Shown here: positions 4,311-33,755 of the stretch, one piece after another | Position numbering within the stretch: the first letter of the stretch is position 1 | Layout: each line of letters starts with the position of its first letter | Source: Elusimicrobia bacterium GWD2_63_28 | GTDB taxonomy: Bacteria > Elusimicrobiota > Elusimicrobia > Elusimicrobiales > UBA9959 | Reading direction: 5' to 3' | Assembly: GCA_001799895.1 (NCBI GenBank) | Contig: MGUI01000014.1 | Location: 1 to 64,000, forward strand | DNA length: 64,000 nt | Program-made: the position numbers and the translations under genes | Notes under the pieces: model-generated | What the model saw: the letters and a program-made list of their open reading frames with translations, nothing else | The model's database searches: none | Told to the model about the DNA's origin: nothing

Positions 4311-4315
4311 CGGCG

Positions 4316-7574: not shown

Positions 7575-7864
7575 AGCCGGAAAAAACAGGCGCGCTTTTT
7601 TTTAGCCGCGAGATCTACTCCGAAGAGGCCGTGCGGCTGGCCGCGGCGGTCTTCGAGGGCCGCGCGGAAGTTCTTGTTTCCAAAAAAACGGGCGGCACCG
7701 CCGCCGAAGTTTCCGGCCCCGGGAACCCGGCCGGGGACTTCGCCAACGAGGTGCTCAACCAGCAGTGCCGCATAGACCTGGGCCGCAAAAACTCCAGGCT
7801 CGCCTCGCTCATCTCCACCAAGGCGCTGCTCTCGGCGGCGGGAGAGAAGCTCTCCAGGCGGTAA
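7571..7864 (+). CDS. Second HxsD-like protein
   Basis: A 97-residue protein, the normal HxsD size. It has an N-terminal strand (ALFFSREIYSEEAVRLAAAVF) and a C-terminal helix (ANEVLNQQCRIDLGRKNSRL) followed by ISTKALL. This fits the HxsD pattern of LLNDYxLRE, an N-containing helix and an AL end. I chose ATG 7571, which overlaps the hxsB stop as ATGA, over the in-frame ATG at 7559. Two HxsD-like genes flanking one HxsB is unusual. They may pair with different enzymes or precursors. Confidence 0.6.
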   Translation: MKPEKTGALFFSREIYSEEAVRLAAAVFEGRAEVLVSKKTGGTAAEVSGPGNPAGDFANEVLNQQCRIDLGRKNSRLASLISTKALLSAAGEKLSRR

Positions 7865-15758: not shown

Positions 15759-15759
15759 G

Positions 15760-16635
15760 ATGCGCATAACCATAGGCGTCAAATCTTCCGAAGAGGCCGG
15801 GTATTTCCTGCGCAACGGCGCGGACGAGATCTATTTCAGCCTCAGCGCGGCGCGCGGTCACCGTACCGCCGCCTTCTCGTCCGAGGCGGACCTGATCGCC
15901 GCGATCAGGCTGGCCCGGCGGCTGCGCAGGAAGACCATGCTTGCCCTGAACGCGGTTTACCCGCGGGAAAATTACCCGGCCATCCTGGACCACGCCCGCC
16001 GCCTGACCGACAAGGGGCTGGACGGTGTCATCGTGCGCGACCCGGCGCTGCTGGAATATTTCGCCGACCACGACTACCGGCCTTACCTGGTGGCCAGCGT
16101 GCTGTGCGCCTGCTTCAACTCCCAAACCATGGAATTTTACCGGGACCTGGGCGTGCGCCGCTTCACGCTCAACAGCCAGGTCATGCCGGCCGACGCCGCC
16201 AGGATGATGGCGGCGCTGCCCGGGGTGGAAACGGTGATCTTCGTGCCCTGCCTGTGCCTCGAGGCCAACATAGAGCCCTACTGCTTTTTCCCCTACCCCG
16301 GCGGCCCCAGCGGCGCCTGCCTGCATGCCTGCACGCTCAGGTACAAATGCGGCGCCAACGCCTTCCGCATGGTAGACACGAACCTCTATTACCAGGCCGA
16401 CCTCCTGTATGATTTCCACAAGCTGGGCGTAGAGTGGCTGAAGGTCTCGAGACAGCCGAACACCCCCAAGCTGATGGCCGAATTCAAGGTGGCCGTTTTC
16501 CTGAACCGCCTGCTGGAGCGGGGGCTGGGCAGGGCAGCCTTCGCCGCGAGCGTGGTCGAATTGATCGAAAGGCTGGACATGAACAAATTCGGGCCGAGCT
16601 ACGACTTCAAACCTTTCCCGGGGAGCGCGCGCTAA
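15760..16635 (+). CDS. U32-family (UbiU-like) Fe-S protein, copy 2
   Basis: A 291-residue paralogue of the 14108 protein. It shares the start (SSEEAGYFLRNGADEIYF), GLDGVIVRDPALLEYF, LGVRRFTLNSQV, the Cys motif CLHACTLRYKC and the end DMNKFGPSYDFKPFPG. Retention of both copies flanking the UbiV-like gene suggests two alternative heterodimers, or two positions hydroxylated on the product. The start ATG at 15760 follows the previous stop by 1 nt. Confidence 0.8.
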   Translation: MRITIGVKSSEEAGYFLRNGADEIYFSLSAARGHRTAAFSSEADLIAAIRLARRLRRKTMLALNAVYPRENYPAILDHARRLTDKGLDGVIVRDPALLEYFADHDYRPYLVASVLCACFNSQTMEFYRDLGVRRFTLNSQVMPADAARMMAALPGVETVIFVPCLCLEANIEPYCFFPYPGGPSGACLHACTLRYKCGANAFRMVDTNLYYQADLLYDFHKLGVEWLKVSRQPNTPKLMAEFKVAVFLNRLLERGLGRAAFAASVVELIERLDMNKFGPSYDFKPFPGSAR

Positions 16636-16636
16636 A

Positions 16637-17482
16637 ATGCCGCTGATACACCTCTTCCGCAAATGCAACCAGCGCTGCGTCTTCTGCTCCTACCCCGAGG
16701 AGGGGGGGGCGGAAGAGGGGGTTTCGCTGAAGGACTGGCTGAAGGAGATAGCCGCCATGCCGCCCGGGCTGGTGCAGATCTCCGGCGGCGAGCCGCTGCT
16801 GGCCGGGGCGGGGGGGCTGTGCCTGCTGCTGGCCGCCGTAAAAAAGCTGGGCCGCCGGGCCGAGCTGCAGACCAATGCGCTGGCCGCCGCCGGCCTTCGG
16901 TCCGAAAACATCTCTAAAATCGTGAAAGCCCTCAATGCCGCCGACGGCTATTTCAACGTGAACTTCCCCGCGGACACGGCCGCGCTGGACTACAGGATAA
17001 CCAGGACCCGCGGGGCCTTCAAAAAACGCCTGGCGGGGGTCGGCCGCCTGATAAAGGCCGGCGCCCGCGTGCGGCTGACGCATATCATCAGCTCGCTCAA
17101 TTATAAACGCCTGCCGGAATTCGCCGCTTTCGCGGTGAAGAAGCTCAAAGGCGCGGCCTGGCTGCAGTTCAGCTATATCAAGGGCATCGGCCGCGCCGGC
17201 GATGGGGTCTTCCTGCCGCGGTACGCCGAGGTGCGGCCTTACCTGGAGCGGGCCCTCTTCATTTGCGAAAAGAACGGCCTGCACTGCGAGGTGGACCATA
17301 TCCCGCCCTGCTTCCTGGGCGGCTTCTACAGGCTGAACGTGGATATTGTTAAAATGAAAGAAGGCCGGCCCGGCCCGCACCTGGAAGAAAAAGAGAGGGT
17401 GCCCGCCTGCCGCGGCTGCCGCTACTTGGAGGTCTGCCCCGGCCCGCGCAAGGATTATATCGCCGTGCACAAGACTTTATGA
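16637..17482 (+). CDS. Small radical SAM enzyme
   Basis: A 281-residue protein with C10NQRC14VFC17, ISGGEPLLAG, LQTNALA and FNVNFPADTAALDYRITR. The C-terminus is CRGCRYLEVCPGPRKDY, a C-x2-C-x5-C-x-G motif. FNVNFP and CxLGGF also occur in the enzyme at 2638-3555, making it the closest relative here. The 4-nt overlap with the aminotransferase gene indicates coupled translation. Confidence 0.85.
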   Translation: MPLIHLFRKCNQRCVFCSYPEEGGAEEGVSLKDWLKEIAAMPPGLVQISGGEPLLAGAGGLCLLLAAVKKLGRRAELQTNALAAAGLRSENISKIVKALNAADGYFNVNFPADTAALDYRITRTRGAFKKRLAGVGRLIKAGARVRLTHIISSLNYKRLPEFAAFAVKKLKGAAWLQFSYIKGIGRAGDGVFLPRYAEVRPYLERALFICEKNGLHCEVDHIPPCFLGGFYRLNVDIVKMKEGRPGPHLEEKERVPACRGCRYLEVCPGPRKDYIAVHKTL

Positions 17483-20244: not shown

Positions 20245-21429
20245 TTACTGCACGCGCTTCTGACCGGCCTTCAGCAGTTCGCCGAGGAGCTTCGCGGGCT
20301 GCTTCTTGGAGCAGGCGGCGATCATCGCGGCGATGACGAAAGGCTTGTAACCGGCTTCCTTGTAGGTGCCGATGCGGGCTTTCTCGAAGACGGACGCGCT
20401 CACCTCGCCGGCCTTGCAGCTGACGTCTGTGATGTCGGCGGGCAGGCAGTGCATGTACACGGCCTTGCCGCCCTTCGTGAGCGCCATCTTGGCCTCGTCG
20501 CATTCCCAGCTCTTGAACTTGGCGTTGTTCTCGAGGCACTCTTTCTCGAGGCCCTTGAGGCCGGCGTGGTCGTTGGCTTCCAGCAGCGCGGTGCGGCGCT
20601 CCATCACCTTGAACGGCGCCCAGCTCTTGGGGTAGACGATATCGGCGTTCTTGAAGGCGCTCTCCATGCTGTTGGAGACCTTGAACGAGCCGCCGGAGGC
20701 CGCGGCGTGCTTCTTGGCCACTTCGATGGTGTCCGGCAGCAGGTCGTAGCCCTCGGGGTAGGCGAGCTCCACTTCCATGCCGAAGCGGCTCATCAGGGTG
20801 ATGACGCCCTGCGGCACGGACAGCGGCTTGCCGTAGCTGGGGGAGTAGGCCCAGGTCATCGCGATCTTCTTGCCTTTGAGGTTCTCGAAGCTCCCGAAGT
20901 GGTTCTTGATGAACAGCAGGTCGGACATGCTCTGGGTGGGGTGGTCCAGGTCGCACTGCAGGTTCACCACCGGGGGGCGCTGGTTCAGCACGCCCTGTTT
21001 GAAGCCGTCGTCGAGGGCTTCGGCGACTTCCTTCATGTAGGTGTGGCCCTTGCCGATGAACATGTCGTCGCGGATGCCGATGGCCTCGGTGAGGAACGAG
21101 ATCATGTTGGCGGTCTCGCGCACGGTCTCGCCGTGGGCGATCTGGCTCTTGCCCTCGTCGAGGTCCTGCACCGCCAGGCCCAGCAGGTTGCAGGCGCTCG
21201 AGAACGAGAAGCGCGTGCGGGTGGAGTTGTCGCGGAAGTTGGACACGGCCAGGCCGGTCTTGAACATGGTCGCGTCTATGTTCTGCGCGTGCATCTCTTT
21301 GAGGATCTCGGCGATCTTGAGCACCGCGTGGATCTCGGCGTCGTTCTTCTGCCAGGTCAGCAGGAAGTCCTTGTGATAGAGGTCGGCGTTGAGCTGCTCC
21401 AGCTCGGCGATAGCGGTCTTAATGTCCAT
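20245..21429 (-). CDS. ygeW: YgeW-family knotted carbamoyltransferase
   Basis: A 394-residue protein nearly collinear with E. coli YgeW. Visible blocks are KDFLLTW, FRDNSTRTRFS (the carbamoyl-phosphate STRT-type motif), DEGKSQIAHGETV, NLQCDLDHPTQSM, MTWAYSPSYGKPLSVPQG, YPKSWAPFKVME and MHCLPADI. It transfers or phosphorolytically removes a carbamoyl group; the natural substrate of this family is unsettled. Start ATG 21429 is chosen because AGGAG lies 6 nt upstream; an earlier ATG at 21456 lacks this. It follows ygeY by 27 nt. Carbamate kinase is present at 61968 and could use the carbamoyl phosphate. Confidence 0.93.
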   Translation of the reverse strand: MDIKTAIAELEQLNADLYHKDFLLTWQKNDAEIHAVLKIAEILKEMHAQNIDATMFKTGLAVSNFRDNSTRTRFSFSSACNLLGLAVQDLDEGKSQIAHGETVRETANMISFLTEAIGIRDDMFIGKGHTYMKEVAEALDDGFKQGVLNQRPPVVNLQCDLDHPTQSMSDLLFIKNHFGSFENLKGKKIAMTWAYSPSYGKPLSVPQGVITLMSRFGMEVELAYPEGYDLLPDTIEVAKKHAAASGGSFKVSNSMESAFKNADIVYPKSWAPFKVMERRTALLEANDHAGLKGLEKECLENNAKFKSWECDEAKMALTKGGKAVYMHCLPADITDVSCKAGEVSASVFEKARIGTYKEAGYKPFVIAAMIAACSKKQPAKLLGELLKAGQKRVQ

Positions 21430-21456
21430 GGTTTTCTCCTGTGTAAGTGTAGTCAT

Positions 21457-22692
21457 TTAATTTTTCCTGTAGACCTGCGTGAACAGCGCGTAGAAGGCCG
21501 CGGCCTTCACGAGGTGTTCCACCGGCACCTGGTCGTTGACCGAGTGGGCGAACTTCTCGTTGGCGGGGCCGAAGCCGATGGTGGGGATGCCGAACATGCC
21601 CATCGTGGCGATGCCGTTGGTGGAGAAGGTCCACTTGTCCACGAGCGGCGCCTTGCCGAAGGCGTTCTCGAAGGTCTTCACGCCGGCCTTGCAGACGGGG
21701 TGATTCTCCTCGAGCACCCAGGTCGGGTAGTACTTCTCCGTCGGGTACTTCAGGCCGGTGTAGCTGGGCGTGTCGTAGCGCAGCACCTCCACCTTGAACT
21801 CGGAGGGCTTGAGGCCGGTGCGCTTCACGGCGTCGGTGACCTGCTTGACGGCCAGGGCCTTGGTCTCGCCCTTGGTCAGGCGGCGGTCCAGGTGGATGTA
21901 GCTCTGGTTGGGCACGGCGCAGAGCGACGGGGTCTTGCAGTCGATGTAGCTGATGGTGACCGTGCCTTTGCCGAGGAACTTGTCGCCCTTCAGGCGGGTG
22001 TTGAGCTTCTCTATCTCGTTGGCCACCTTGGCCATCATGTACACGGCGTTCTTGCCGCGCTCGGGGGCGGAGCCGTGGCAGGACACGCCGTAGGTGGTAA
22101 CGGCGATCTCCATGCGGCCGCGGTGGCCGCGGTAGATGTTGAGGTTGGTGGGCTCGGTGATGATGACGCAGTCCGGGCGCAGCTTGTCTTCTTTGTAGAT
22201 GTACTGCCAGCACAGGCCGTCGCAGTCCTCTTCCTGGACGCTGCCCACGACGTAGAGCGTGAAGTCCTTATCGAGCCCCAGGTCCTTGAGGATCTTGCCC
22301 GCGTAGACCATGCTCACCATGCCGCCTTCCTGGTCGGAGGCGCCGCGGCCGTAGATGATCCCTTTGTCCAGCTTGCCCTTGTACGGGTTCCATTTCCATT
22401 CTTTCAGGCTGCCGATGCCCACGGTGTCGATGTGTGCGTCCATGGCTATCACGGTCTTGCCGCTGCCGATGCGCCCGATGATATTGCCCATCGGGTCGAT
22501 GGTGATCTTGTCGAAGCCGGTCTTCTGCATTTCTTTCTTGATGCGAAGGACCACTTCCTTCTCCTGGCAGCTCTCGCTGGGGATGGCGATCATGTCCCTC
22601 ATGAACTTGATCATGTCCTTTTCGTACTTCTTGGCCCCGGCGTTGATCTTGCGGGAAAGTTCTTTGATGTCGACAGCAGCGGTTTTTGCCAT
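21457..22692 (-). CDS. ygeY: YgeY-family M20-like metallohydrolase
   Basis: A 411-residue M20/ArgE-type zinc hydrolase. It has AMDAHIDTVG (first metal ligands), GRGASDQEGGMV, SVQEEDCDGL (catalytic EE) and ITEPTNLNIYRGHRGRMEI. The close match is to YgeY, assigned to a putative selenium-metabolism hydrolase family. An AGAGGT ribosome site precedes the ATG. With ygeW it forms a two-gene operon like the ygeW-ygeX-ygeY locus of enterobacteria, here without ygeX. The pair probably degrades a carbamoylated amino-acid or purine-derived amide. Confidence 0.88.
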   Translation of the reverse strand: MAKTAAVDIKELSRKINAGAKKYEKDMIKFMRDMIAIPSESCQEKEVVLRIKKEMQKTGFDKITIDPMGNIIGRIGSGKTVIAMDAHIDTVGIGSLKEWKWNPYKGKLDKGIIYGRGASDQEGGMVSMVYAGKILKDLGLDKDFTLYVVGSVQEEDCDGLCWQYIYKEDKLRPDCVIITEPTNLNIYRGHRGRMEIAVTTYGVSCHGSAPERGKNAVYMMAKVANEIEKLNTRLKGDKFLGKGTVTISYIDCKTPSLCAVPNQSYIHLDRRLTKGETKALAVKQVTDAVKRTGLKPSEFKVEVLRYDTPSYTGLKYPTEKYYPTWVLEENHPVCKAGVKTFENAFGKAPLVDKWTFSTNGIATMGMFGIPTIGFGPANEKFAHSVNDQVPVEHLVKAAAFYALFTQVYRKN

Positions 22693-22858: not shown

Positions 22859-24259
22859 ATGAAGAAGCCGCAAAGCAAACCTTCCTACTTCAATTTTCGC
22901 CGCCTGCCGCATGGCGTGCTCGTGGCCGGCGACCTGGGCGGCTGGGCGCTGCTCACGCCGGCGGAATTCAAACTCTTCTCATCGGGGAAACTGACGAAGG
23001 GCCCCGGGCTGGCAAAGCTGGAGCGCGCCGGGCTGATCAGCTCCCGCCTTGATTTCGACGCGCTCTGCGCAGACTGGCGCGATTCCAACGACTACCTGGA
23101 GCGCGGGCCCGGCCTGCACATTTTAGTGCTGACCCAGAACTGCAACCACGGCTGCGTCTACTGCCAGGCCGGCTCGGGCCGGGGCGCAAGCATGAGTCCC
23201 GCCGCGGCCCGCCGCGCGGTGGATTTCGCCTTCTCCGCCCCGGTGGAGGGGCTGACCCTGGAGTTTCAGGGCGGCGAGCCGCTGCTGAACTGGCCGGCGC
23301 TGAAAGCGGCCGCCCTCTACGCGCGGAGCAAGGCGGCGAAGACGGGCAAAGAGCTCGCGCTCGCGCTGGTCTCTAATTTCAGCACCATGACGGAGGAAAA
23401 GGCGGAGTTCCTGATCAGCAACGACATTTCCGTCTGCACCTCGCTCGACGGGCCGGCGGACCTCCATAACGCCAACCGCCCCTTCTCCGGCGGGGATTCC
23501 CACGCCCGCGCGGTCAAGTGGATAAAATACTTCCAGCGCCGTCGCGGCGGCCTGCCGCCCGGCGGGCCCAGCGCCCTGCTGACCGTCACCCGGGCTTCGC
23601 TCGGCCGCGCCCCGGAGATAGTGGACGAATACGCCCGCCTCAAGCTGCCTTACGTGTTCCTGCGGCCGCTCACGCCCATGGGCCAGGCCCCGAAGCGCTG
23701 GGGGGAGATAGGCTACGGGCCGGAGGAGTTCCTGGAATTCTACCGGGCCGGCCTGAACCGCGTGCTGGCCCTCAACAGGCGCGGCGTGAAGATAAAAGAG
23801 AAAACGGCTTTCCTGCTGGTCAAGAAGATCCTGGGTTCCCAGGACAACAAGTACGTGGACCTGCGCTGTCCCTGCGGCGCGGGGCTGGGCCAGCTGGCCT
23901 ACGACTGCGACGGCGGGATCTATACCTGCGACGAAGGGCGGATGCTGGCCAGGGACGGGGACAACTCTTTCCGCCTGGGCGGCGTGAGGGACGGCTACGC
24001 CCGGATCATCAATTCCTTCCCGGTTAAGGCCTGCGCCCTTTCCTCCAGCCTGGACCTGCAGCCGGCCTGCGCCCGCTGCGCCTACAAGGCCTGGTGCGGC
24101 GCGTGCCCCGCCTACAACAGCGCGGCGCAGGGCGGTTTCTGGGGTTCCATGCCCTCTAACGCCCGCTGCCGCATCCTTACCGGGGTTTTCGACCATATCT
24201 TCGCGCTCCTCGCGGGAAAAGACAACTTAAATATATTTAATCAGTGGCTTGAAAATTAG
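22859..24259 (+). CDS. hxsB: HxsB-type radical SAM maturase, second copy
   Basis: A 466-residue paralogue of the 6111 protein. It has the same N-terminal recognition region (YFNFRRLPHGVLVAGDLG), C95NHGC99VYC102, FQGGEPLLNW, VCTSLDGPADLHNANR, the CPCGAGLGQLAYDCDG block and the C-terminal CARCAYKAWCGACP. I chose ATG 22859, where homology begins; an in-frame GTG at 22808 would add 17 unrelated residues. It heads a locus with the Cys-rich exported protein and the His-Xaa-Ser precursor. No HxsC or HxsD homologue lies beside it, so it may share those from the first locus. Confidence 0.85.
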   Translation: MKKPQSKPSYFNFRRLPHGVLVAGDLGGWALLTPAEFKLFSSGKLTKGPGLAKLERAGLISSRLDFDALCADWRDSNDYLERGPGLHILVLTQNCNHGCVYCQAGSGRGASMSPAAARRAVDFAFSAPVEGLTLEFQGGEPLLNWPALKAAALYARSKAAKTGKELALALVSNFSTMTEEKAEFLISNDISVCTSLDGPADLHNANRPFSGGDSHARAVKWIKYFQRRRGGLPPGGPSALLTVTRASLGRAPEIVDEYARLKLPYVFLRPLTPMGQAPKRWGEIGYGPEEFLEFYRAGLNRVLALNRRGVKIKEKTAFLLVKKILGSQDNKYVDLRCPCGAGLGQLAYDCDGGIYTCDEGRMLARDGDNSFRLGGVRDGYARIINSFPVKACALSSSLDLQPACARCAYKAWCGACPAYNSAAQGGFWGSMPSNARCRILTGVFDHIFALLAGKDNLNIFNQWLEN

Positions 24260-24332
24260 TGATTTATGTGGTAAAACATAGGGATAGGCCTGCCGGCCCT
24301 GCCGGGAGGCTGCGGGGTATTTTTGACCAAAT

Positions 24333-25430
24333 ATGAAAAAGATAATTATCGCCGTTATCGTGGTGCTGGCCGGCGCGCTGATCGGCCTTAAATATTTCGC
24401 CTCCAGGGAACAGTCCCCCGCCGCCCGCCCCTCCGGGCAGGCGCAGCAGACCGCCGCCGAGGGCGTGGCCCTGCCTGCCGCGGCTACGGACAACCCCGTT
24501 ATCCCCCAGGAGTCCACCTATATCCCTACGCAGGCCTCCGGCAGCTACGAACTGCTGACCATGCCCCCGGCCATCATGGGGCTGAAGGGTTCCTGCGAGG
24601 GCGGTTCGCCCAAGGAGATAATGGAGAGCCATGGCAAGGTCTGGGGCTATTTTACCGGCCGCCGCGCCTCTTTCGACGCCAAGAAGACGCAGGAGATGTA
24701 CGATTTCATGGGCAGCTATTACTCCTGTCTGGCCGCCGCGCGGCAGGATATCACGATCTGCAACGATCTCCCCGGCGAGGCCGAGAAGGACGGCGTCAAG
24801 GTGGACGTAAGCATGAGCCCGCTCGGCAGCTGCCGGACCAAGGCCGGCCTTTTCCTCTTCAGGGCTTATATAGCCGGCAGGGCCAAGGATACCCAGAACT
24901 GCATGGGGTACCTGAGCGACTGGAACGCCACCAACCTGGCCAGGATCTCCCCGCCGGATTTCTGCGCCGCCGCGGCCAAGGGCCCGGAAGCCATCATGGC
25001 CTACACCAAAGAGAAGCTGCCTGATATGTATTCCATGGCCGAAAACCTGTTGGCTTTTTCCAGGAAGGCCTGCGGCGCCGACCCCGTCTGCCTCAATAAC
25101 AATACCCTCTGGGAGGGCATAAAGAGCGGCAACCCGGAAAAGTGCCCCGCCTCCTTCGTGCCGCTCTGCTCCGCGCTGGTCCAGAAGAGCCAGGTGCCCT
25201 GCGCCGAGATCGTTTTCGAGATGTCCAGGAAATACTGCGTCTATTACAAGGAACTCGTGAAGGGCGGCGGCGGCTTCGCCGGGTATACCGCCGACGAGGC
25301 CAAGGAACAGCTGCGCGAGATGATGCAGAAGAAGGCCGAGGAAGACCGGCAGCGCAAGGAACAGGAATCCACTACCAAGCAGGTCAACGAGCGCGTGCGT
25401 AAACTTGTGGGCAAGCAGAGCGGGAACTAA
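24333..25430 (+). CDS. Cys-rich exported protein, hxsB-linked family, copy 2
   Basis: A 365-residue protein with an N-terminal signal anchor (KKIIIAVIVVLAGALIGLKYF), a Pro/Ala/Gln-rich linker, a domain with about 12 Cys (residues ~85-320) and a charged helical tail ending VRKLVGKQ. It is a clear paralogue of the 7866 protein: SCEGGSPKEI, ESHGKVWGY, DFCAAAAKG, KCPAS...LC and FAGYTADEAKE all align. It lies 73 nt after hxsB and 10 nt before the hxsA-like gene. A TATTTT 9 nt before the ATG may be a weak promoter. Function unknown; probably extracytoplasmic. Confidence 0.7.
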   Translation: MKKIIIAVIVVLAGALIGLKYFASREQSPAARPSGQAQQTAAEGVALPAAATDNPVIPQESTYIPTQASGSYELLTMPPAIMGLKGSCEGGSPKEIMESHGKVWGYFTGRRASFDAKKTQEMYDFMGSYYSCLAAARQDITICNDLPGEAEKDGVKVDVSMSPLGSCRTKAGLFLFRAYIAGRAKDTQNCMGYLSDWNATNLARISPPDFCAAAAKGPEAIMAYTKEKLPDMYSMAENLLAFSRKACGADPVCLNNNTLWEGIKSGNPEKCPASFVPLCSALVQKSQVPCAEIVFEMSRKYCVYYKELVKGGGGFAGYTADEAKEQLREMMQKKAEEDRQRKEQESTTKQVNERVRKLVGKQSGN

Positions 25431-25440
25431 AGGCGGCTAT

Positions 25441-25749
25441 ATGATAAAGAAAACCTCTAAACTTAAAAAGAACATCCGCATGTTCCTCAGCAGCGAGGAA
25501 GGCAAGATGCTCGACGCTGACATCGTAAAGACCGGGCTGGCCCTGGGCATCCTGGGCACGGCGATGGTGGAGCAGGCCTCCGCGCAGGTGCACTCCAACT
25601 ACTTCACCACCAACGCGCACGTCAGCCACCAGAGCCACGGCTCCCACGGGTCCCACGGCTCTCACGGCTCTCACGCTTCCCACGGCTCCCACGGCTCCCA
25701 CGGCTCCCACGGCTCTCACGGGTCCCACGGCAGCCACGGGTCGTATTGA
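25441..25749 (+). CDS. hxsA: HxsA-like precursor with His-Xaa-Ser repeats
   Basis: A 102-residue precursor. Residues 1-22 are basic with FLSSEEGKM. Residues 28-44 are hydrophobic (IVKTGLALGILGTAMVE), then QASA offers an AxA cleavage site before Q49. From H60 to S101 there are 14 uninterrupted His-Xaa-Ser triplets (one HVS, one HQS, one HAS, eleven HGS), ending in Tyr. Repeats of this kind define the substrates of HxsB/HxsC/HxsD systems. Start ATG 25441 is preferred over an upstream in-frame ATG at 25405. The modification is unknown; His and Ser are the obvious sites. Confidence 0.88.
   Translation: MIKKTSKLKKNIRMFLSSEEGKMLDADIVKTGLALGILGTAMVEQASAQVHSNYFTTNAHVSHQSHGSHGSHGSHGSHASHGSHGSHGSHGSHGSHGSHGSY
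25618..25743 (+). repeat. Tandem 9-bp coding repeat (His-Xaa-Ser)
   Basis: Fourteen consecutive 9-bp units of the form CAC-(GGN/GCT/CAG/GTC)-(TCN/AGC). Synonymous codons vary between units (GGC/GGG; TCC, TCT, TCG, AGC) while His-Gly-Ser stays fixed, so the repeat is kept at the protein level. Confidence 0.9.
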
Positions 25750-25762
25750 CGGAAAACGCCCT

Positions 25763-26881
25763 GTGCCCGGGCGACGCGTTTTTTACCTTCATAATCCCTC
25801 GGGGGATATCGGGCACGCCGTACACTTGTTGCGGCTGCTTGCGGCGCTGGAAGCCCGCGGCGGCCGCAATTTAATTTTCCTCCGCGCCCCCTCCGTTTAC
25901 CCGCACAAGCTCCTCGAAAACTACGGCGAAGTAAGGGCGCTGCCCGCCCTGCCTTCGGCCGCCTCCGGCCGCGCCCTGGCCGCCGCCGTTACGCGCTTCC
26001 GGCCGACGGCGCTGGTCACTGAATACTTCCCCTTCGGCCGGTCCGAATGCCTCCCCGAGATACTGCCGGCGCTAGCCGCGGCCGCCCGGCGCGGGGCCAG
26101 GCTTTTCGCCAGCGTGCCCATGCCGTATTTCACGGCCCCGGCCGTCGCCCTGCCCTCCCTGCTGGAGGCCTGCGCGCGCTACGACAAGATCCTGGTGCAC
26201 AGCCCCGGGGGGGCGGACCTGCCCTACATGGCCAAGGCCGTAGCGCTGGAACGCCGCGTTTCAGCGGGAGCTTTCCTTTCGGTCTTCGAAGCGCTGCGGG
26301 CGAAAATAGTTTTCACCGGCTATTTGCTCCCGCCGCCGGCGCGCGCCGGTTCTAAAAAAGATTTCATCCTCGTGACGCGGGGGGGCGGCTCCACTTCCGA
26401 CCGCCTGGTTGAGGCTGCGATAGGGGCCGCCCGGCTCACGGGCCGGCCTTTCCTGATCATCGCCGGGCCTTCCACCACGCCCGCCCGGCTGGAGCGCTTC
26501 CGCCGGCTGGCCGCCGCCAGCGGCGGCAACGCCGCGGTGCTCTTCGCCTTCGCGGACATGCCCGGCCTGATGGCGCGGGCCGCCGCCTGCGTATCTACCG
26601 CCGGCGGCTCGGTGTACGAGATGCTGGCCCTGCGCAAGAAGATGGTGCTCGCGCCCTACTGCGGGGCCAAGGGGCGGGAGCATTCGGACCAGCTGGCCCG
26701 CGCCTGGCTGGCCCGCGACCTGGCCGGCGCCGAGCTGCTGCTGCCCGCCGACCTCACGCCGGAAAAGATCGCCGCCGCCGTAGAGCGCGCGCTCGCCCGG
26801 CCGCTCAAGGTCTCGAAAAAAATAAAACCGTCCTGGTTTCTCGGCGCGCAGCGATCCGCCCGCGAACTGAAGGGCCTGTGA
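25763..26881 (+). CDS. GT28-like (MurG-type) glycosyltransferase
   Basis: A 372-residue protein with a GTG start 13 nt after hxsA. The N-terminus (VFYLHNPSGDIGHAVHLLRLL) has the nucleotide-sugar transferase GxGH-like loop. The C-terminal half ends with STAGGSVYEMLALRKKMVLAP...HSDQLARAWL, matching the GT28 C-terminal acceptor/UDP-binding signature (GG...EAL...P...Q). No membrane segments. Its position directly after the precursor suggests it could glycosylate the peptide Ser residues or make a sugar for the product. A role unrelated to the peptide cannot be excluded. Confidence 0.65.
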   Translation: MPGRRVFYLHNPSGDIGHAVHLLRLLAALEARGGRNLIFLRAPSVYPHKLLENYGEVRALPALPSAASGRALAAAVTRFRPTALVTEYFPFGRSECLPEILPALAAAARRGARLFASVPMPYFTAPAVALPSLLEACARYDKILVHSPGGADLPYMAKAVALERRVSAGAFLSVFEALRAKIVFTGYLLPPPARAGSKKDFILVTRGGGSTSDRLVEAAIGAARLTGRPFLIIAGPSTTPARLERFRRLAAASGGNAAVLFAFADMPGLMARAAACVSTAGGSVYEMLALRKKMVLAPYCGAKGREHSDQLARAWLARDLAGAELLLPADLTPEKIAAAVERALARPLKVSKKIKPSWFLGAQRSARELKGL

Positions 26882-27840
26882 CAGAGAACGTGATGATGGA
26901 GCTCACCTGGCGCTGCGGCGCCGGCTGCGCTTTCTGCTACCTCGGCGAAACGGGCCGCCTGAACCGGCGCGGCCCCGAAATGACTACGGCGGAGATAAAG
27001 GCTTTCCTGCGCTCCTTCCCCGCCGGGACGCGTTTTTATTTCACCGGCGGCGAGCCTTTTCTGCGCAAGGACATCTTCAGCGTGCTGGGGTACGCCTCGT
27101 CGCGCGGCTTCACCTGGGGCGTGAACACCAATGGCCTGGCCCTGAACCGCCCCAAAATCAAAAGACTGATGGCCCTCGGCCCCGCCTATGTGATCTTCTC
27201 GCTGCACGGCCCCGCCGCCGCGCACGACAGACTGACAGGGGTGAAGGGCGCGCACGCGAAGGTGCTGGCCAATGTGGGGATTGCCGCGGAATTGAAGCGG
27301 CCGGGGACCGAGGTCATAACCAACTGCGTGATAAATTCAGCCAATGTCCGGCTGCTGCCCGCCGTTTACCTGGAGGCGGCCCGCGCCGGCGCGGACCGTG
27401 CTATCTTCGAGCATCTGCAGTTCCTGAAGAAGGGGGAGGCGCCCGGGCTGTCGCCGGCGGAGGTGATGACGCCGTTCCTGCCCGGCTACCGGCTGGACAC
27501 GGCGGCGTTCGAGCGCTCCGTGGGGAAAATAACGGCCCTGCGCGGCGAGTTCGAAACTCATTTCGAACTGAGGCCCGACTTTAGTCGCCGGGAACTGGCG
27601 CGCTACTATAACGGGCGGATGAAGCCTGCGGGCGCCTGCCCCGCGCTGCTCTCTACTCTCAACGTGGAGCCCGACGGGCGGCTGCGCACCTGCGTGCTGT
27701 ATTGCGCGCCCGCCGGCGGCACCGTGAAGAAGTTGGACCGGGCCGGCCTGAGGGTGGCCAAGCGCCGGCTGGTGAAGGGCGGGTTGCCGCGGGGCTGCGC
27801 CCGCTGTTGCCAGCGCTTCGCTATCGAACGGATTTTTTAA
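26878..27840 (+). CDS. Radical SAM enzyme with SPASM-like C-terminus
   Basis: A 320-residue protein with a GTG start overlapping the previous stop (GTGA). C13GAGC17AFC20, YFTGGEPFLRKD, GVNTNGLAL and FSLHGPAAAHDRLTG mark the core. The C-terminus has CPALLSTLNVEPDGRLRTCVLYC and CARCC, a SPASM-type layout binding auxiliary clusters. SPASM enzymes often modify ribosomal peptides, so it is a second candidate maturase for the hxsA product. It converges with and overlaps the deacetylase gene by 20 nt. Confidence 0.85.
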   Translation: MTENVMMELTWRCGAGCAFCYLGETGRLNRRGPEMTTAEIKAFLRSFPAGTRFYFTGGEPFLRKDIFSVLGYASSRGFTWGVNTNGLALNRPKIKRLMALGPAYVIFSLHGPAAAHDRLTGVKGAHAKVLANVGIAAELKRPGTEVITNCVINSANVRLLPAVYLEAARAGADRAIFEHLQFLKKGEAPGLSPAEVMTPFLPGYRLDTAAFERSVGKITALRGEFETHFELRPDFSRRELARYYNGRMKPAGACPALLSTLNVEPDGRLRTCVLYCAPAGGTVKKLDRAGLRVAKRRLVKGGLPRGCARCCQRFAIERIF

Positions 27841-28534
27841 TTATTTCCGAGGCCAGGACGAAACGGGCGAGGCCGCGGGCCTCGAGGTCCTTGAGAAAAA
27901 CCGCGTAGTCCGAGAAAACCTTAAAATCTTCAGCTGAAAAGTCGGCGTGGTGGAAGTAAACGCCCGCCGGCCCTTTTTCTTTTACCGCGGCCAGCGTGCG
28001 GGACTTGAGCAGCTTCAGGTCCAGCGGCCGCGGCGCCAGGTTCAGATCGTATTCGTTCACCGTCACGCGCGTGGGCAGGAAGGCCAGGCCGCGCGGCAGC
28101 GGGGCCTCCAGCCGGCGGCTCGCCGACAGCGCTTTGAAGCCGCGCGCCTTGAGCGCCTTGAGCGTGTCCGAATTGTAGGCGTGGAAAGGCGGCACGAAGA
28201 CCGGCTTGGATAATTTCCCAAAAAGTTCCAACATCCTTTTTTTGCCGGCGGCTATGTCCGCCCCCTGCTCCGCCAGGCTGCGGGAAGGGCCGAACTCGTG
28301 CTTGAGGTATTTGTTGCCGGCGCGCTCGGCGTGGCTGTAGCCGTGCTGCAGCGCCTCCAGCCGCGCCCCGGCGGCCGCCGCGCGGCGCAGGTACGACGCC
28401 AGGGCCGCGCCGGCCCCGGCGGGGATCACGGCGCAGGAGAGGGGCAGGCCGAGTTTATGCAGCAGGCCCGCGGCGCGCAGGAAAGCCCGGTCGGGCTTTA
28501 CCACATCGTCGCAGCGCAGGAAAAAAGTTTTCAT
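27821..28534 (-). CDS. Polysaccharide-deacetylase-like (NodB fold) protein
   Basis: A 237-residue protein. FFLRCDDVVKPD gives the catalytic/metal Asp pair, LQHGYSHAE the HxxxH metal site, and FVPPFHAYN the active-site block; VYFHHADF supplies the C-terminal His. No signal peptide, so it is probably cytoplasmic or acts on a lipid-linked sugar at the inner face. It is the last gene of the seven-gene minus operon and overlaps its neighbour by 4 nt. The substrate is probably an N-acetyl sugar, by family. Confidence 0.7.
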   Translation of the reverse strand: MKTFFLRCDDVVKPDRAFLRAAGLLHKLGLPLSCAVIPAGAGAALASYLRRAAAAGARLEALQHGYSHAERAGNKYLKHEFGPSRSLAEQGADIAAGKKRMLELFGKLSKPVFVPPFHAYNSDTLKALKARGFKALSASRRLEAPLPRGLAFLPTRVTVNEYDLNLAPRPLDLKLLKSRTLAAVKEKGPAGVYFHHADFSAEDFKVFSDYAVFLKDLEARGLARFVLASEIIKKSVR

Positions 28535-29817
28535 CTCTTCATCCAGGGGTCGGCGCCGAAAGGATCTCCGGCCTGGAAGCGGCTGCCGCCCAGGCAGACG
28601 CTAAGCATGGCGCAAGCCCTGCAGCGCCCGGGCAGCCAGGCGCAGCGCCGGGTCTTCTTCAGGAAAGGGTGGGCCCAGGCCCCGGCCAGGCTTTTTCCCA
28701 GGAACTGTTTGGAGGGGTAGGAAGGCTTGTAACGCCCGTTGGCGTCCAGCACCAGCCGGGTCCAGCCGTCGTCGAAGCGGGCCCCCAGCGCGAAAGGCCG
28801 CGCCGCCGCGGGCAGCGCGCAGAGCGGCACGGGGTTGGCCAGCACGGCCCTTGCCCCTTCGCCCTGGCGCGCCACGGCCTTCGCCAGCGCTGTGAAATCT
28901 TTCGCCGAAACTTTAAATTCAGGCGCGGCGGTCAGCCCCTCCGGAGTCATCATCGGCCGGTAAAGCTCCCAAATATCGAAGCCGAGGGCGCTGACGGCCT
29001 TGTGCCAGCTCCGGAAATTCCCGGCGAGGTCCTTCGAAACCACGGTGCCGGCCCGCACCACCTTGACGCCGGCCGCGCGCAGCCGCTTCACCGCGGCGGC
29101 CTTGGCGGCGAAGGTGCCCGCTCTGCCGGAGCCCGCGGCGTGGGAGGCTTCGTCGGCGCCGGGCAGGGAGATGAGCGCGTTGTCCACCAGCCCGGCCAGC
29201 GCCCGCGCTTTGGCCGGGGTCAGGAGCACGGCGTTGGTGTTGAGCAAAGTGTAGAACCCAAGTTTCCTGGCCAGCTTCAGGAGCCGCTCCAGGCCGTCGT
29301 AAAGCAGCGGCTCGCCGCCGGTAAAGCGCGCGCTCTTCACGCCCAGGGCGGCGGCCTCGCGCAGCGCCTGCTCCGCCTGTTTGAGCGAAAGCTCTTCGCC
29401 GGTGCGACCGAAGCAGGCCCGGCAGGCCAAATTGCAATTCTTATTGAGCTCAATTACGATTTCCGACGGCGCGGCCAGCGCGGGCTTTAAAAGGCGGGAG
29501 CCGGCCCAGTCCCGGTTCAGGCCGGGGCAGCGCCCCTTCAGCGAACAGCGCACGCAGACCTTGGCGGCACTGAAGGGCCCGCGCGCGCCGCGCGGCCAGG
29601 CGAAGTGCTCGGCAGCGTCGGGCATCAGGCAGGGCGGCGCGCCTTCTATCGTGAAAAGGAACCTGTCTTCCAGGGCAGTCAGCAGCGGGTAGAGCAGGGC
29701 CCGCGCTTTTTCAGCATCGGCGCCGGGCAGGAGGGTCGCCCTGAAGCGGCGCTCGCGCCTGTAAATGGCGAGGTCCAGGCCGCAGGGGCCGGCGGCGCGG
29801 AACAAAGCCTCAAGCAT
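28531..29817 (-). CDS. Radical SAM enzyme with N-terminal Cys domain
   Basis: A 428-residue protein. An N-terminal region of ~120 residues carries CVRCSLKGRCPG (C-x2-C-x5-C-x-G), normally a C-terminal motif in the small enzymes of this window. The core follows with NCNLACRAC, RFTGGEPLL and LLNTNAVLL. A second auxiliary motif CRACAMLSVCLGG is near the C-terminus. The placement before and after the core suggests two auxiliary clusters. It overlaps both neighbours. Confidence 0.8.
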   Translation of the reverse strand: MLEALFRAAGPCGLDLAIYRRERRFRATLLPGADAEKARALLYPLLTALEDRFLFTIEGAPPCLMPDAAEHFAWPRGARGPFSAAKVCVRCSLKGRCPGLNRDWAGSRLLKPALAAPSEIVIELNKNCNLACRACFGRTGEELSLKQAEQALREAAALGVKSARFTGGEPLLYDGLERLLKLARKLGFYTLLNTNAVLLTPAKARALAGLVDNALISLPGADEASHAAGSGRAGTFAAKAAAVKRLRAAGVKVVRAGTVVSKDLAGNFRSWHKAVSALGFDIWELYRPMMTPEGLTAAPEFKVSAKDFTALAKAVARQGEGARAVLANPVPLCALPAAARPFALGARFDDGWTRLVLDANGRYKPSYPSKQFLGKSLAGAWAHPFLKKTRRCAWLPGRCRACAMLSVCLGGSRFQAGDPFGADPWMKR

Positions 29818-30958
29818 GTTTCAGCCTCCAGGAATACACCCCGGCGCCGAAGCGCCGTTCGATCAAGCCTTTCTTTACCAAAGCCTGCCCTGTAACTAAA
29901 ACGCTGTTGCCGTCGGAACAATCATAGCAGAGCGGCACAGTCTTGGCCGCCTTCAGGACCTGCGCCGTGGTCAGGGTCTTGCCGCCGCGCAGCACTTCCA
30001 GAAAACATTTCTCGTTATTGGTCAGGCGCGGGCCGGCTGTTTCCGGGGCGGGGCGGGGCTTTCCCCTGACCGGCGCTATTCCCTTCCAGCCGAAAATTTC
30101 CAGATACTTGCCATCCACGCCGCGGCAGGTCTTTTTAAAGAAACAGCGCGCGCAGGGCGGACCCTGCAGCCGGTCAGCCGCCGTGCAGGTGTCCAGGTCG
30201 CGGGCTTCGCCGGAGGCGGCTACCACGACAGTATTGAACTTGTAGAGCCCGGCGGCGCGGCTTTCGTAGCCGGGCAGCAGGCAGGGCGGGACATTGAGAG
30301 CCTTTACTTCCCGGCCCAGCCCGGCCTCACCGGCCAGCCGCAGCGCCTTCACTATGAAAGGGGCCGCCGCCGGCAGGCTCACCTGGAGCGCGGCGGCGCG
30401 GGCCATGGCGCCGGTATAGATGGGGTAGATCAGCACAAAATTAGCGACGCCGCGGTCCATGAAAAATTTAAGCGTCCGCGGCAGGCTCTTGTAATTGGCC
30501 GCCGTGATCAGCAGGTTTATCCCGACGGCGGCCTTCAGCCGCAGCATGTTCTCCAGCCCGGCCAGGCTTTTCTCGAAGGCTCCCGGTTTTCCTACCAGCT
30601 TGTCGTGCAGCGCCGGGGTATGGCCGGCGAAGGTGAACTTGCAGACGGTAAGGCCGGCCTCCACCAGGCGCGCCGCCGCCTGCCGCGAGGCCAGGCGCAT
30701 GCCGTTGGTCTGCAGGCGCACGGCCTTGAAGCCTACCTCCCGCGCGGCCCGCACCAGCAGCGGCAGGTCCCGCCGCAGCAGCGCCTCGCCGCCGGAGAAG
30801 CCCAGCCGGGTGAACCCCGCCTTCCTGGCGGCGTAGATATGCCGCACGGCGGCGGCCGGCTGCATCAGGGCCGCGGAATTGAAATCGGCTTGCGAGCAGA
30901 ACCCGCAGCGCAGGTCGCAGGCGTGGTTCAGTATTATTTCGCAGCAGTCCCTTTTCAT
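29810..30958 (-). CDS. Radical SAM enzyme with C-terminal DCSDGN winged-helix-like domain
   Basis: A 382-residue paralogue of the 12907 protein. C14DLRC18GFC21, FSGGEALLRRD and LQTNGMRL form the core. CARCFFKKTCRG...FGWKGIAPV is the auxiliary motif. NEKCFLEVLRGG...LCYDCSDGN...FGAGVYSWRL is the added ~70-residue domain. Start ATG 30958 overlaps the previous stop; an in-frame ATG at 30988 would add ten residues. The pair sits in different operons, which suggests the added domain docks on a common partner. Confidence 0.85.
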   Translation of the reverse strand: MKRDCCEIILNHACDLRCGFCSQADFNSAALMQPAAAVRHIYAARKAGFTRLGFSGGEALLRRDLPLLVRAAREVGFKAVRLQTNGMRLASRQAAARLVEAGLTVCKFTFAGHTPALHDKLVGKPGAFEKSLAGLENMLRLKAAVGINLLITAANYKSLPRTLKFFMDRGVANFVLIYPIYTGAMARAAALQVSLPAAAPFIVKALRLAGEAGLGREVKALNVPPCLLPGYESRAAGLYKFNTVVVAASGEARDLDTCTAADRLQGPPCARCFFKKTCRGVDGKYLEIFGWKGIAPVRGKPRPAPETAGPRLTNNEKCFLEVLRGGKTLTTAQVLKAAKTVPLCYDCSDGNSVLVTGQALVKKGLIERRFGAGVYSWRLKHA

Positions 30959-31734
30959 TTGTTCAGTATTTCCCGCATCGGGCCCCAATCGAAGGCGGCC
31001 AGCAGCGCATCCGCTTTAATTGGGACGCTGTTAACATTGTAGTATTGAACGGCCCGCTTGTAAAAAGGCAGGCCGGGCGGCGGGGCGGCGTCGAATTCCC
31101 AGGAGTGGAAATAAAGCACGGCCGGCAGCCCGCCGCGGTTGAGCGCGGCCACCCTGCCCTTCAGGAAATCCAGGCCGGCCCAGCGCAGGAAGGTGCCGCC
31201 GAGGAATGGCAGGCCGAGGCCGCAGCAGCGGGCAACGGACGGGGGGAATTCCAGGAGACCGTCGAGCGCCTGGTAGGGCCCGCGGGGGGCGCCCGGGCCG
31301 AGGCCGTAGAGGCTGGAATCGTAACTGAAGCCGGCCGCGCGGATCAGCGGCAGGAATTCGGCCTCGCGTCCCTTCAGGGACCAGGTGGGAGCCCTGTAGC
31401 CGGCGGGCTCGACGCCGGAGGCGGCTTTTATGGATTCGCGGGAGCGGGCCAGGTCTTCGGCGAACTCCGCGGCGGTCAGCCGCCAGAGCGAGCGGTGCTC
31501 CTGGCCGTGGCTGGCCAGTTCGTGGCCCGCCGACACGATGGCGCGCGCCGTTGCCGGGTAAGCCGCGGCCAGCCGGCCCAGCATGAAAAAAGTTGCTTTG
31601 ACGCCCCGGCGTTCCAGCAGGGCCAGGATGTCTTCCACGTTGCGGGCGAAATTCCCGGCGCCGTTCCCGGGGTTTCCTTCGAACAGCACCGTGTCGTGCC
31701 ATTCTTCCAGGTCTATCGTCACGGCGTTCCTCAC
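30955..31734 (-). CDS. Polysaccharide deacetylase
   Basis: A 259-residue protein with a GTG start inside GTGA. The motifs are AVTIDLEEWHD (catalytic Asp/Glu pair), ATFFMLGRLA, HELASHGQEHRS (HxxxH-type metal ligands), GYRAPTWSL and a C-terminal VLYFHSWEFD. The WEFD ending resembles deacetylases linked to exopolysaccharide/exosortase loci. It probably removes N-acetyl from an envelope glycan intermediate. It is the second deacetylase of this operon. Confidence 0.85.
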   Translation of the reverse strand: MRNAVTIDLEEWHDTVLFEGNPGNGAGNFARNVEDILALLERRGVKATFFMLGRLAAAYPATARAIVSAGHELASHGQEHRSLWRLTAAEFAEDLARSRESIKAASGVEPAGYRAPTWSLKGREAEFLPLIRAAGFSYDSSLYGLGPGAPRGPYQALDGLLEFPPSVARCCGLGLPFLGGTFLRWAGLDFLKGRVAALNRGGLPAVLYFHSWEFDAAPPPGLPFYKRAVQYYNVNSVPIKADALLAAFDWGPMREILNK

Positions 31735-33755
31735 GCGCGGCCCGCCGAAGAATAGGGTTCGCGGCCGCAGCGGCGGCAGGCGGGCAGGAAGCCGCCGTTC
31801 TTAATCAGCAGTTTCCGGAAAGCGGCGTAGGCGGGGCCATTGTAGGTTTCGGGCCCGCCTATCTTCACGGCCAGCGGCTGGCAGGTGAGCAGTTGCCCGG
31901 AGGGCGAAAGCCAGGCGGCGCTGAACTGGCCGCGGCAGAAGCCCGATTTTTTGAACCGCGCTCCTGGGGAATACCAGGCGCGCAGGGCGGGGCCGGGAAG
32001 ATCCGGGTAGAAAGAAACTGAATTCCCGGCTTCGGCTTTGATCTTGGAAATTTCTGCGGCCAGCACCTTCGCGTCAATTCCCTTCGCCAGCCCGGCAGAG
32101 CTTTTCATCGGCGTGGAGAGGCCAGCGCCTTCCAGCAGTCCTTGCGTGGCCGCCAGGTCCTTTTCAGAGCAGAATTCCAAATGGTTGAAGGCTATCCCGT
32201 CGGGGCCGAGGGCCTTGAGGGTTTTCCAGACCCGGTGCAGGCGGGCATGGTTGGCGGAGTTGATGGTGCACCAGAGGGTCAGCCGCGTGCCGGGGGCGCG
32301 GCGCTTCTTTATAAGCTCCAGATTGCGCAGCGCCGTCTTCCACGCGCCGGGCGCGCCGGCCGACCGCTCGTGCAGGGCGGGCCAGCCGTGCACCGAGACC
32401 ACTATCTCGCCGGGCCCGGCTTTTGCCAGAGCGGCCGCCGCGGCAGCCGGGGCGAACAGGGCGGTGGTGACCAGGGAGGAATGGCCTAGGGCGTTCAGCT
32501 TTTTAACCAGCTGCGGCAGGAAGGGCGCCAGCAGCGGCTCGCCGCCGGTCAGGTAAAATTTCTTCGCGCCCGGCCCGAGGTCTTTTATCAGTTTCAGCCA
32601 GCCGGCCAGGCCGAGTTCCCGGCCCCCGGCGAGGCCATGCCGCTTCACGAAGCAGAAAGAGCAGTCCAGGCCGCAGCGGTAGGTCAGGTCCAGGGCTATA
32701 TATGAAGGCGGCGGAAATTTTTTTCCCGGCGTCGGGGCGGGCGCGGTCTTAAAGCGGTCGAGGTGTTTCTTTACCAGCGCGGCGGCGCGCCGACATTCGG
32801 CAGCGGTCATCAGGGGCCAGGCCGGCAAATGCAGGGCCGAACGCCAGTACTCGTCCGCAACCGGCAATACCCCCGGCAATTTTTTTTCCAGCCGCAGCGG
32901 CTTGTAGATGCGTTCCAGCGGCACGCCGGCCGCCTTGAAGATTTTTTCAGCGCCCGCCCTGTCGGGGATCAGCAGCGGGAATTCCTGCGTCTTCGGGCTG
33001 ATGCCGGCCGGTATATAGCGCCCGTAGTCTTTCAGCGCGGCGCGGTAAACGGCATTGGCCGCCCGCGAAGTTTCCAGCGTGGCGTCCAGCCGGGCAAGTT
33101 TCAGTTTCAGGAAAGGCAGCGCCTGCGGCTTGGGGGGGGGCGGGTTGAGCGCCAGGAGTTTTTTGTAAATTTCCGGGGAATCACAGAGCAGCGCGCCGGC
33201 CCTGGCGAAAGGAGAAGAGACCGGTTTGTAGGGGGAGAGCGACAGCACGCCGATATCGCCGAAAGAGCCGTACTTCCTGCCGCGCAGCGCCCCGCCCAGT
33301 ATCTGCGAGGCGTCTTCTATCACCGCGAAGCCGTGCCGGCGCGCCAGGCGCAGGGCTGCTTCTATCGGCGCCGGGGTGGCGAACATATGCGGCAGCAGCA
33401 GCAGGTCCAGGCCCGGCGCCGCTTTTTTTAAGGCGGTTTCAGACAGGTTCAGCGTCCGGGGATCTATGTCGAGGGGCAGCAGTTTAAAGCCTTCGGCGGC
33501 TTCGGCCAGGGACGGGTGCGTTATGTCCGGGAAGGCCGCGGTGCCGCCGCCGGGCCGCAGCGCCAGGACGGCCAGCCGCAGCGCCGTCCGCCCGCTGTCG
33601 GTCAGCAGGCAGTAGCGGCGGCCCAGGTAGGAAGCGAAACTTTTCTCCAGCGCGGCGCGGTAAGCCGCGGGGCCGGCGGCCTTAAGGGCGCGGGTCTCGC
33701 GCGCGGCCGCGCGCATCAATTTGCGGTCCAGCCTGTACGGGTCGAAGGGCTTCAC
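31731..33755 (-). CDS. DegT-type aminotransferase fused to a radical SAM enzyme
   Basis: A 674-residue fusion. Residues ~25-335 form a DegT/DnrJ/EryC1 PLP aminotransferase, with TDSGRTALRLA, IEDASQILGG (D148) and the Schiff-base Lys K177 in SPYKPVSS. Residues ~350-670 form a radical SAM enzyme, with C361GLDC365SFC368, YLTGGEPLLAP and a C-terminal Cys set (CRGQ...LLTCQPL...CRRCG). DegT enzymes aminate keto-sugars or similar ketones, so the fusion may couple amination with a radical step on the same substrate. It overlaps its neighbours by 4 nt each. I know of no named family with this order. Confidence 0.85.
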   Translation of the reverse strand: MKPFDPYRLDRKLMRAAARETRALKAAGPAAYRAALEKSFASYLGRRYCLLTDSGRTALRLAVLALRPGGGTAAFPDITHPSLAEAAEGFKLLPLDIDPRTLNLSETALKKAAPGLDLLLLPHMFATPAPIEAALRLARRHGFAVIEDASQILGGALRGRKYGSFGDIGVLSLSPYKPVSSPFARAGALLCDSPEIYKKLLALNPPPPKPQALPFLKLKLARLDATLETSRAANAVYRAALKDYGRYIPAGISPKTQEFPLLIPDRAGAEKIFKAAGVPLERIYKPLRLEKKLPGVLPVADEYWRSALHLPAWPLMTAAECRRAAALVKKHLDRFKTAPAPTPGKKFPPPSYIALDLTYRCGLDCSFCFVKRHGLAGGRELGLAGWLKLIKDLGPGAKKFYLTGGEPLLAPFLPQLVKKLNALGHSSLVTTALFAPAAAAAALAKAGPGEIVVSVHGWPALHERSAGAPGAWKTALRNLELIKKRRAPGTRLTLWCTINSANHARLHRVWKTLKALGPDGIAFNHLEFCSEKDLAATQGLLEGAGLSTPMKSSAGLAKGIDAKVLAAEISKIKAEAGNSVSFYPDLPGPALRAWYSPGARFKKSGFCRGQFSAAWLSPSGQLLTCQPLAVKIGGPETYNGPAYAAFRKLLIKNGGFLPACRRCGREPYSSAGRA

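Follow-up and report, generated by a model that had tools for sequence, protein, structure and literature searches.

The His-Xaa-Ser (HxS) system, consisting of HxsA, HxsB, HxsC and HxsD, was reportedly described by Haft and Basu in 2011, and the naming of HxS systems from sequence goes back more than 10 years. Glycocins are ribosomally synthesized and post-translationally modified peptides (RiPPs) that are glycosylated on Cys or Ser by GT-A family 2 glycosyltransferases. Here we analyzed a stretch of 64,000 nucleotides (denoted the window; positions 1 to 64,000 of contig MGUI01000014.1) from Elusimicrobia bacterium GWD2_63_28, in which five genes at 22859-27840 (locus A) encode HxsB, a Cys-rich protein, an HxsA4 precursor, a glycosyltransferase and a radical SAM enzyme (denoted rS2). 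We consider it somewhat better than even, at a probability of about 0.55, that locus A and a second locus at 3.7-14 kb (locus B) make up one two-locus HxS pathway, the product of which would be glycosylated by the glycosyltransferase and exported.

Phylum-wide profile searches covered 341 genomes of Elusimicrobiota and genus-level counts 32 genomes; the surroundings of HxS genes were read in 62 stretches, each taken as a single region. The genome of the window is denoted G000, C2 is another of its contigs, and L005 a locus on C2. The curated cut-offs were 370 bits for HxsB (TIGR03978), 55 for HxsA4 (NF038313), 50 for HxsD (TIGR03976), 267.9 for HxsC (TIGR03977) and 500 for HxsC4 (NF038332); the Pfam gathering scores were 22 for PF04101 and 26.5 for PF01478. 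Type A loci have the order [HxsD] HxsB [HxsD2] Cys-rich protein, HxsA4 (HGSY end), glycosyltransferase and rS2, with convergent genes for DUF2334, rS3, rS4 and others. Type B loci run from a barnase-like ribonuclease, barstar and an exported protein to HxsD, HxsB, HxsD2, Cys-rich protein and HxsA4 (RGGWC end), followed by radical SAM genes; many also have an A24-type protease.

The HxS precursor and the adjoining glycosyltransferase

The five genes of locus A lie on the + strand, at the coordinates given by an earlier sequence-only reading of the window; the gaps between them are 73, 10, 13 and -4 bp, the last being an overlap of the glycosyltransferase and rS2 genes by 4 bp. The precursor exceeds the HxsA4 cut-off and ends in an unbroken HxS repeat, in which the earlier count of 14 triplets was exact: HVS, HQS, four HGS, HAS and seven HGS, followed by a Tyr at the C-terminus. 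The array is under strong purifying selection; comparison with two close relatives (L040 and L041) yielded 12 and 14 synonymous and 0 nonsynonymous codon differences. Its Ser codons are drawn from both codon boxes, and triplet 7 reads HAS or HSS in almost every type A precursor. The 14 exact triplets, the curated family match and the 0 nonsynonymous changes rule out a chance array.

Aligned leaders share the motif F[LF]xSEEGK, a hydrophobic stretch and an A-x-A-like end, and most precursors have HxNY before the array; the small HxS protein is probably exported. By eye only, the motif FLxSEEG looks like a prepilin signal. An Flp prepilin leader was rejected, as PF04964 matched no HxsA4 precursor in 59 genomes of the family, its sole weak match (L114) adjoining an unrelated type IV pilin-like open reading frame. 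A terminator-like hairpin at 25757-25773, between the precursor and glycosyltransferase genes, was not above shuffled expectation.

The gene 3' of the precursor had been called a GT28-like glycosyltransferase, an assignment that was borne out. Its product matches the GT28 C-terminal domain (PF04101) with 32.6 bits (E=1e-7), above the gathering score; the copy on C2 matches with E=6e-4. The AlphaFold (AF2) model, with a predicted local distance difference test (pLDDT) score of 89.5, has a GT-B fold, as confirmed by Foldseek matches to MurG (7d1i; E 2.8e-10, template modelling score 0.60-0.67) and to CalG1, OleD and GtfA (E ~1e-10). The invariant residues GTAGG..YE and SDQxAR resemble what we take to be the donor-site signature of MurG.

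Across the phylum, HxsA4 was found in 93 genomes and the glycosyltransferase as 20 genes in 19 genomes, all of which carry HxsA4; no copy lies outside an HxS locus. Eighteen of the 20 genes are located <300 bp 3' of HxsA4 on the same strand, mostly at gaps of 1-32 bp. The copy on C2 shares an operon with its precursor at a distance of 1.6 kb, and that of G107 lies between HxsB and rS2, facing DUF2334, rS3 and rS4, with a Tyr-ended precursor ~26 kb off. This restriction to HxS loci and the placement beside precursors rule out a chance neighbour. The sequence-only reading had proposed to look for the same neighbours in related genomes; there, the glycosyltransferase is kept beside HxsA4, and so is the Cys-rich gene across the family. 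Close relatives of the glycosyltransferase were found on contigs of Elusimicrobia metagenome-assembled genomes or of such genomes titled 'bacterium'.

The glycosyltransferase accompanies 20 of 28 Tyr-ended precursors, two of them from the single locus L005, versus 0 of 21 RGGWC-ended ones (Fisher p=1.3e-7, phylogeny ignored). Of the eight Tyr-ended precursors without it, three are of type A (L052, L062, L103), that of L108 is cut by a contig end, and the other four (L039, L047, L048, L096) belong to a third locus type. In these three type A loci the glycosyltransferase, rS2 and DUF2334 are jointly absent and the array is visibly unchanged; the joint loss suggests that the three genes form a module. 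By contrast, rS3 is retained in type A loci, including those without the glycosyltransferase. In the tree, the glycosyltransferase of the third HxS locus of G000 nests among those of type A (support 100/99), indicating that the gene was transferred to another type of HxS locus without leaving the vicinity of precursors. That locus (L005, 6399-12458) holds two Tyr-ended HxsA4 genes, each followed by an exported protein without known family, together with an HxsD above cut-off, an HxsC4-like radical SAM gene and the glycosyltransferase. The RGGWC-ended sister precursors occur in type B loci (L045, L049, L051, L055 and others), never with the glycosyltransferase; their C-terminal Cys could carry a distinct modification.

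The remaining genes of locus A keep their characteristic residues. HxsB, which the sequence-only reading had named correctly, passes its cut-off and retains the radical SAM and SPASM cysteines: C95, C99 and C102 are invariant in 64 of 64 homologues, and C404, C407, C413 and C437 are kept in at least 98%. The last gene, rS2, had been called a SPASM radical SAM enzyme; the radical SAM part stood (its CxxxCxxC is invariant in 20 of 20 homologues), but no SPASM model was among the matches listed. Further conserved cysteines (C150, C254, C272, C307 and C310) fit a smaller twitch-like domain and suggest that this, rather than a full SPASM domain, forms the C-terminal region. The Cys-rich protein, found next to the precursor as claimed, has an N-terminal hydrophobic helix and homologues in 59 of the 341 genomes, almost always beside HxsA4. 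Comparison of its model with the PDB gave no Foldseek match at E<=0.001 and VIA Z values of at most 4.7 for single helices only, which is no proof of a new fold. TGA codons lie inside some matches of the Cys-rich protein, but the two checked by coordinates overrun the gene's own stop, which makes selenocysteine unlikely there.

Proposed division of the pathway between two loci

Compact as it had been described, locus A is not self-contained. The sequence-only reading had reported hxsC and hxsD as absent from it and present at 5.7-10.8 kb. In substance this holds, but the scores of the proteins there fall below the family cut-offs, and an HxsC4-like gene, rS4, lies just outside 22859-27840 on the other strand. 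No protein of the window reaches the HxsC or HxsC4 cut-off (the product of 16637-17482 scores 74.6 bits against HxsC) or that of HxsD (22.8 bits); the HxsD copy on C2, in the same genome, passes with 54.9 bits.

Locus B has no precursor, and its Cys-rich gene runs directly into the HxsC4-like gene. Relatives such as L064 have HxsA4 with an RGGWC end and extra HxsB-like genes at the equivalent of 8960-8970, which is the site where the type B locus of the window lost its precursor. Precursorless B loci were fetched from 14 further type A genomes: all 14 carry the A24-like gene and one radical SAM gene besides HxsB and HxsD2, 13 carry HxsD (the contig of G155 stops inside HxsB), and neither an HxS array nor an SEEGK leader was found in any of the 14.

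Each of the 15 split genomes has just one copy of the HxsC4-like gene. It is located in locus B in ten (G000, G130, G137, G141, G142, G144, G148, G149, G151 and G155) and beside locus A in five (G125, G126, G138, G145 and G146), never in both. This complementary placement is the strongest evidence that A and B are one pathway. An exception is G139, where the type B locus, present alongside one of type A, includes a precursor of its own. There is strong comparative support for the HxsC and HxsD functions being supplied by the predicted proteins of the 5.7-10.8 kb locus.

The A24-like protein of locus B has both catalytic Asp motifs, with D23 and G95-D96-x-K98 invariant. It matches PF01478 with 18.5 bits (E=0.0028), below the gathering score; the best homologue matches with 3.4e-5. 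The gene occurs in 28 of the 32 genus genomes; HxsA4 is likewise missing from three of the remaining four but present in the fourth (G128). The protease may cleave the HxsA4 leader.

Table 1. Features of the two HxS loci, with nucleotide positions in the window
Feature	Position	Strand	Evidence or conservation
HxsB, radical SAM/SPASM maturase of locus A	22859-24259	+	TIGR03978 425 bits, cut-off 370
Cys-rich membrane-anchored protein, 12 Cys, all-helical model	24333-25430	+	no family match; pLDDT 84
HxsA4 precursor, 102 aa, 14 HxS triplets then Tyr	25441-25749	+	NF038313 85 bits, cut-off 55
HxsA4 leader, aa 1-49 (FLSSEEGK motif, hydrophobic stretch, ASA end)	25441-25587	+	kept in aligned precursors
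HxS array, 14 triplets	25618-25743	+	codon comparison with L040, L041
GT-B glycosyltransferase, MurG-like	25763-26881	+	PF04101; donor-site-like invariant residues; fold
rS2, radical SAM enzyme	26878-27840	+	PF04055 E=1.3e-16; CxxxCxxC
DUF2334 deacetylase-like protein, convergent	27821-28534	-	PF10096 3.6e-14; D9, D10, H64, H68 invariant
rS3, radical SAM enzyme	28531-29817	-	PF04055
rS4, HxsC4-like radical SAM enzyme	29810-30958	-	NF038332 94.2 of 500; TIGR03977 71.8 of 267.9
Polysaccharide deacetylase, XrtA-system-like	30955-31734	-	TIGR03006 171.5 bits of 276.2
DegT aminotransferase-radical SAM fusion	31731-33755	-	PF01041 and PF04055
HxsD-like protein	5678-6145	+	TIGR03976 22.8 bits, cut-off 50; profile matches in 30/32 genus genomes
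Second HxsB	6111-7574	+	TIGR03978 477 bits
Second HxsD-like protein	7571-7864	+	NF038315/TIGR03976 23 bits, below cut-offs
Cys-rich paralogue, 33% identical to locus A protein	7866-8966	+	
HxsC4-like radical SAM	8963-9880	+	NF038332 144.7 of 500; TIGR03977 95.3 of 267.9
Radical SAM-like protein	9901-10794	+	in 14/14 other precursorless B loci
A24 (prepilin peptidase)-like membrane protease	10791-11942	+	PF01478 in 6/12 homologues; Asp motifs
Radical SAM gene	11981-12910	+	PF04055; kept in B loci where contig reaches
Radical SAM gene, 45% identical to rS4	12907-14100	+	kept in B loci where contig reaches

Proposed pathway and rival readings

The observed gene content and its conservation, the split, the conserved catalytic residues and the purifying selection on the array form the basis of the pathway that we propose. 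The five genes of locus A would be its precursor-bearing half. The HxsA4 leader would recruit the maturases, and HxsB, together with the HxsD-like and HxsC4-like products of locus B, 13-17 kb upstream, would carry out a radical SAM modification of the His-Gly-Ser array, a role of HxsB inferred from the HxS family. The glycosyltransferase and rS2, often with the DUF2334 deacetylase, would serve as an accessory module, the most likely task of which is to add a nucleotide-activated sugar to the array product and trim it before export. A role of the mature array outside the cytoplasm is suggested by the hydrophobic A-x-A leader, by the A24-type protease and by the Cys-rich partner with its membrane anchor. 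We infer the peptide as acceptor, as well as the acceptor residue, the sugar, export, leader cleavage and the order of the steps. Of the earlier suggestion that the product is glycosylated on Ser, glycosylation stands as the best reading, with Ser as one candidate site beside Tyr or a crosslink, acceptor and sugar being unreadable from sequence. A fuller version appears unlikely to us: a new, glycosylated class of radical SAM-modified repeat peptide, in which the array would be modified by multiple radical SAM enzymes and glycosylated at many positions by a dedicated glycosyltransferase, the product would be released or displayed once a dedicated A24-type protease has cut its prepilin-like leader, and the Cys-rich protein would act as a surface partner.

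Several points weigh against a glycosylated HxS product. All of the sampled conservation falls within one bacterial family, and the loci therefore cannot be counted as independent. As the array is unchanged in L052, L062 and L103, the glycosyltransferase is not needed for a conserved array, and no acceptor motif was found that separates precursors with the glycosyltransferase from those without it. No characterized HxS product was found in the literature searched. Finally, an envelope glycan is an equally conceivable purpose of the glycosyltransferase, deacetylase and DegT genes.

This last point leads to the main rival, which we regard as possible but doubtful: the glycosyltransferase, the DUF2334 and XrtA-type deacetylases and the DegT fusion would build an envelope polysaccharide or lipid-linked sugar, and the HxS peptide would be a radical SAM-modified, unglycosylated companion, for example a surface or metal-binding protein. 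The MurG-like GT-B fold, the adjoining polysaccharide deacetylase and sugar-aminotransferase genes and the likeness of Tyr-ended arrays without the glycosyltransferase are consistent with such a role. It accords poorly, however, with a glycosyltransferase gene that lies directly 3' of the precursor in 18 of 20 cases (mostly within 1-32 bp), has no copy outside HxS loci in the 341 genomes and was transferred from one type of HxS locus to another; moreover, the deacetylase and DegT genes are retained less consistently than the glycosyltransferase.

The GT-B protein might instead be a repurposed non-transferase serving rS2, such as a sugar epimerase-like or binding protein. Foldseek matched non-hydrolysing uridine diphosphate (UDP)-sugar 2-epimerases with similar E-values, and the GT28 sequence match is modest in the window (1e-7) and on C2 (6e-4); since GTAGG..YE and SDQxAR, both invariant, agree with the donor site of a glycosyltransferase and most fold matches are transferases, we judge this improbable. 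Even less probable is an unmodified, His-rich exported protein with a metal-binding or structural function, the adjoining enzymes using other substrates. The low-complexity His/Gly/Ser array, the exported-looking leader and the lack of a known product would allow it, but NCBIfam curates HxsB and HxsA4 as an enzyme-substrate pair, HxsB adjoins or is near HxsA4 in most loci, and Ser and His are kept at every triplet despite codon drift.

Neighbouring genes and comparison with described systems

Upstream of locus B, genes at 3723-4705 encode an exported barnase-type ribonuclease (PF00545, 4.7e-12) and then barstar (PF01337, 1.7e-21), an order kept upstream of HxsD in most type B loci. They are followed at 4829-5647 by an exported protein without family match that carries the motif LxLTTxYPAPYGGY and, close to the C-terminus, a conserved CC; in many loci it is directly upstream of HxsD. 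Downstream, 14108-16635 holds three U32-like genes (relatives of UbiU/TrhP), which recur in other HxS loci and could encode oxygen-independent hydroxylases. Next come an HxsC-like radical SAM gene (16637), a SufS-like gene (17479) and a BchE-like B12 radical SAM gene (18723). Between the two HxS loci, 20245-22692 encodes the selenium-metabolism-linked pair YgeW/YgeY, above cut-offs; in many relatives, YgeW is found next to type A loci as well. The parts of the DegT-radical SAM fusion are separate adjoining genes on C2 (L005) and in G138 (L131).

In the literature searched, HxsA and HxsB received passing mentions only, and we found no description of the two-locus split, the module of glycosyltransferase and radical SAM enzyme, the A24-type protease or the Cys-rich membrane partner; the HxS system paper (Haft and Basu 2011) is cited in PMC9062424. 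If the peptide is glycosylated, this would be the first identified modification of an HxS product in the literature available. The conserved glycosyltransferase-radical SAM module and a parts list that recurs in 15 split genomes provide a co-expression set and expected mass shifts, and such a conserved gene set makes the chemistry of His-Xaa-Ser peptides easier to test.

As in prepilin processing, in which A24 peptidases act on class III signal peptides, an A24-like protease with both catalytic Asp motifs is present; here, however, there is no Flp_Fap match, Lys residues follow the Gly and lie within the hydrophobic stretch, and there is an A-x-A site as well. The glycosyltransferase shares the GT-B fold and donor-site-like residues with MurG/GT28-type and antibiotic enzymes, but is only 13-17% identical to MurG, CalG1, OleD and GtfA; its subfamily is confined to Elusimicrobia in the collections searched and tied to HxS loci. 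Like the glycocins, locus A encodes a glycosyltransferase beside a precursor peptide; it differs in having a GT-B enzyme together with radical SAM enzymes, and in that glycosylation of the peptide is predicted. With the HxS system (TIGR03976-03978, NF038313) it shares HxsA4 and HxsB above the cut-offs and HxsD- and HxsC-like proteins in the genome. In contrast to that system, precursor and HxsD/HxsC-like genes are in two loci, the latter scoring below cut-off in the window, and a glycosyltransferase, rS2, DUF2334, a Cys-rich membrane protein and an A24-type protease are added. Because HxsA4 and HxsB are named families, the system is not new in kind; its new parts are the glycosyltransferase module and the two-locus split.

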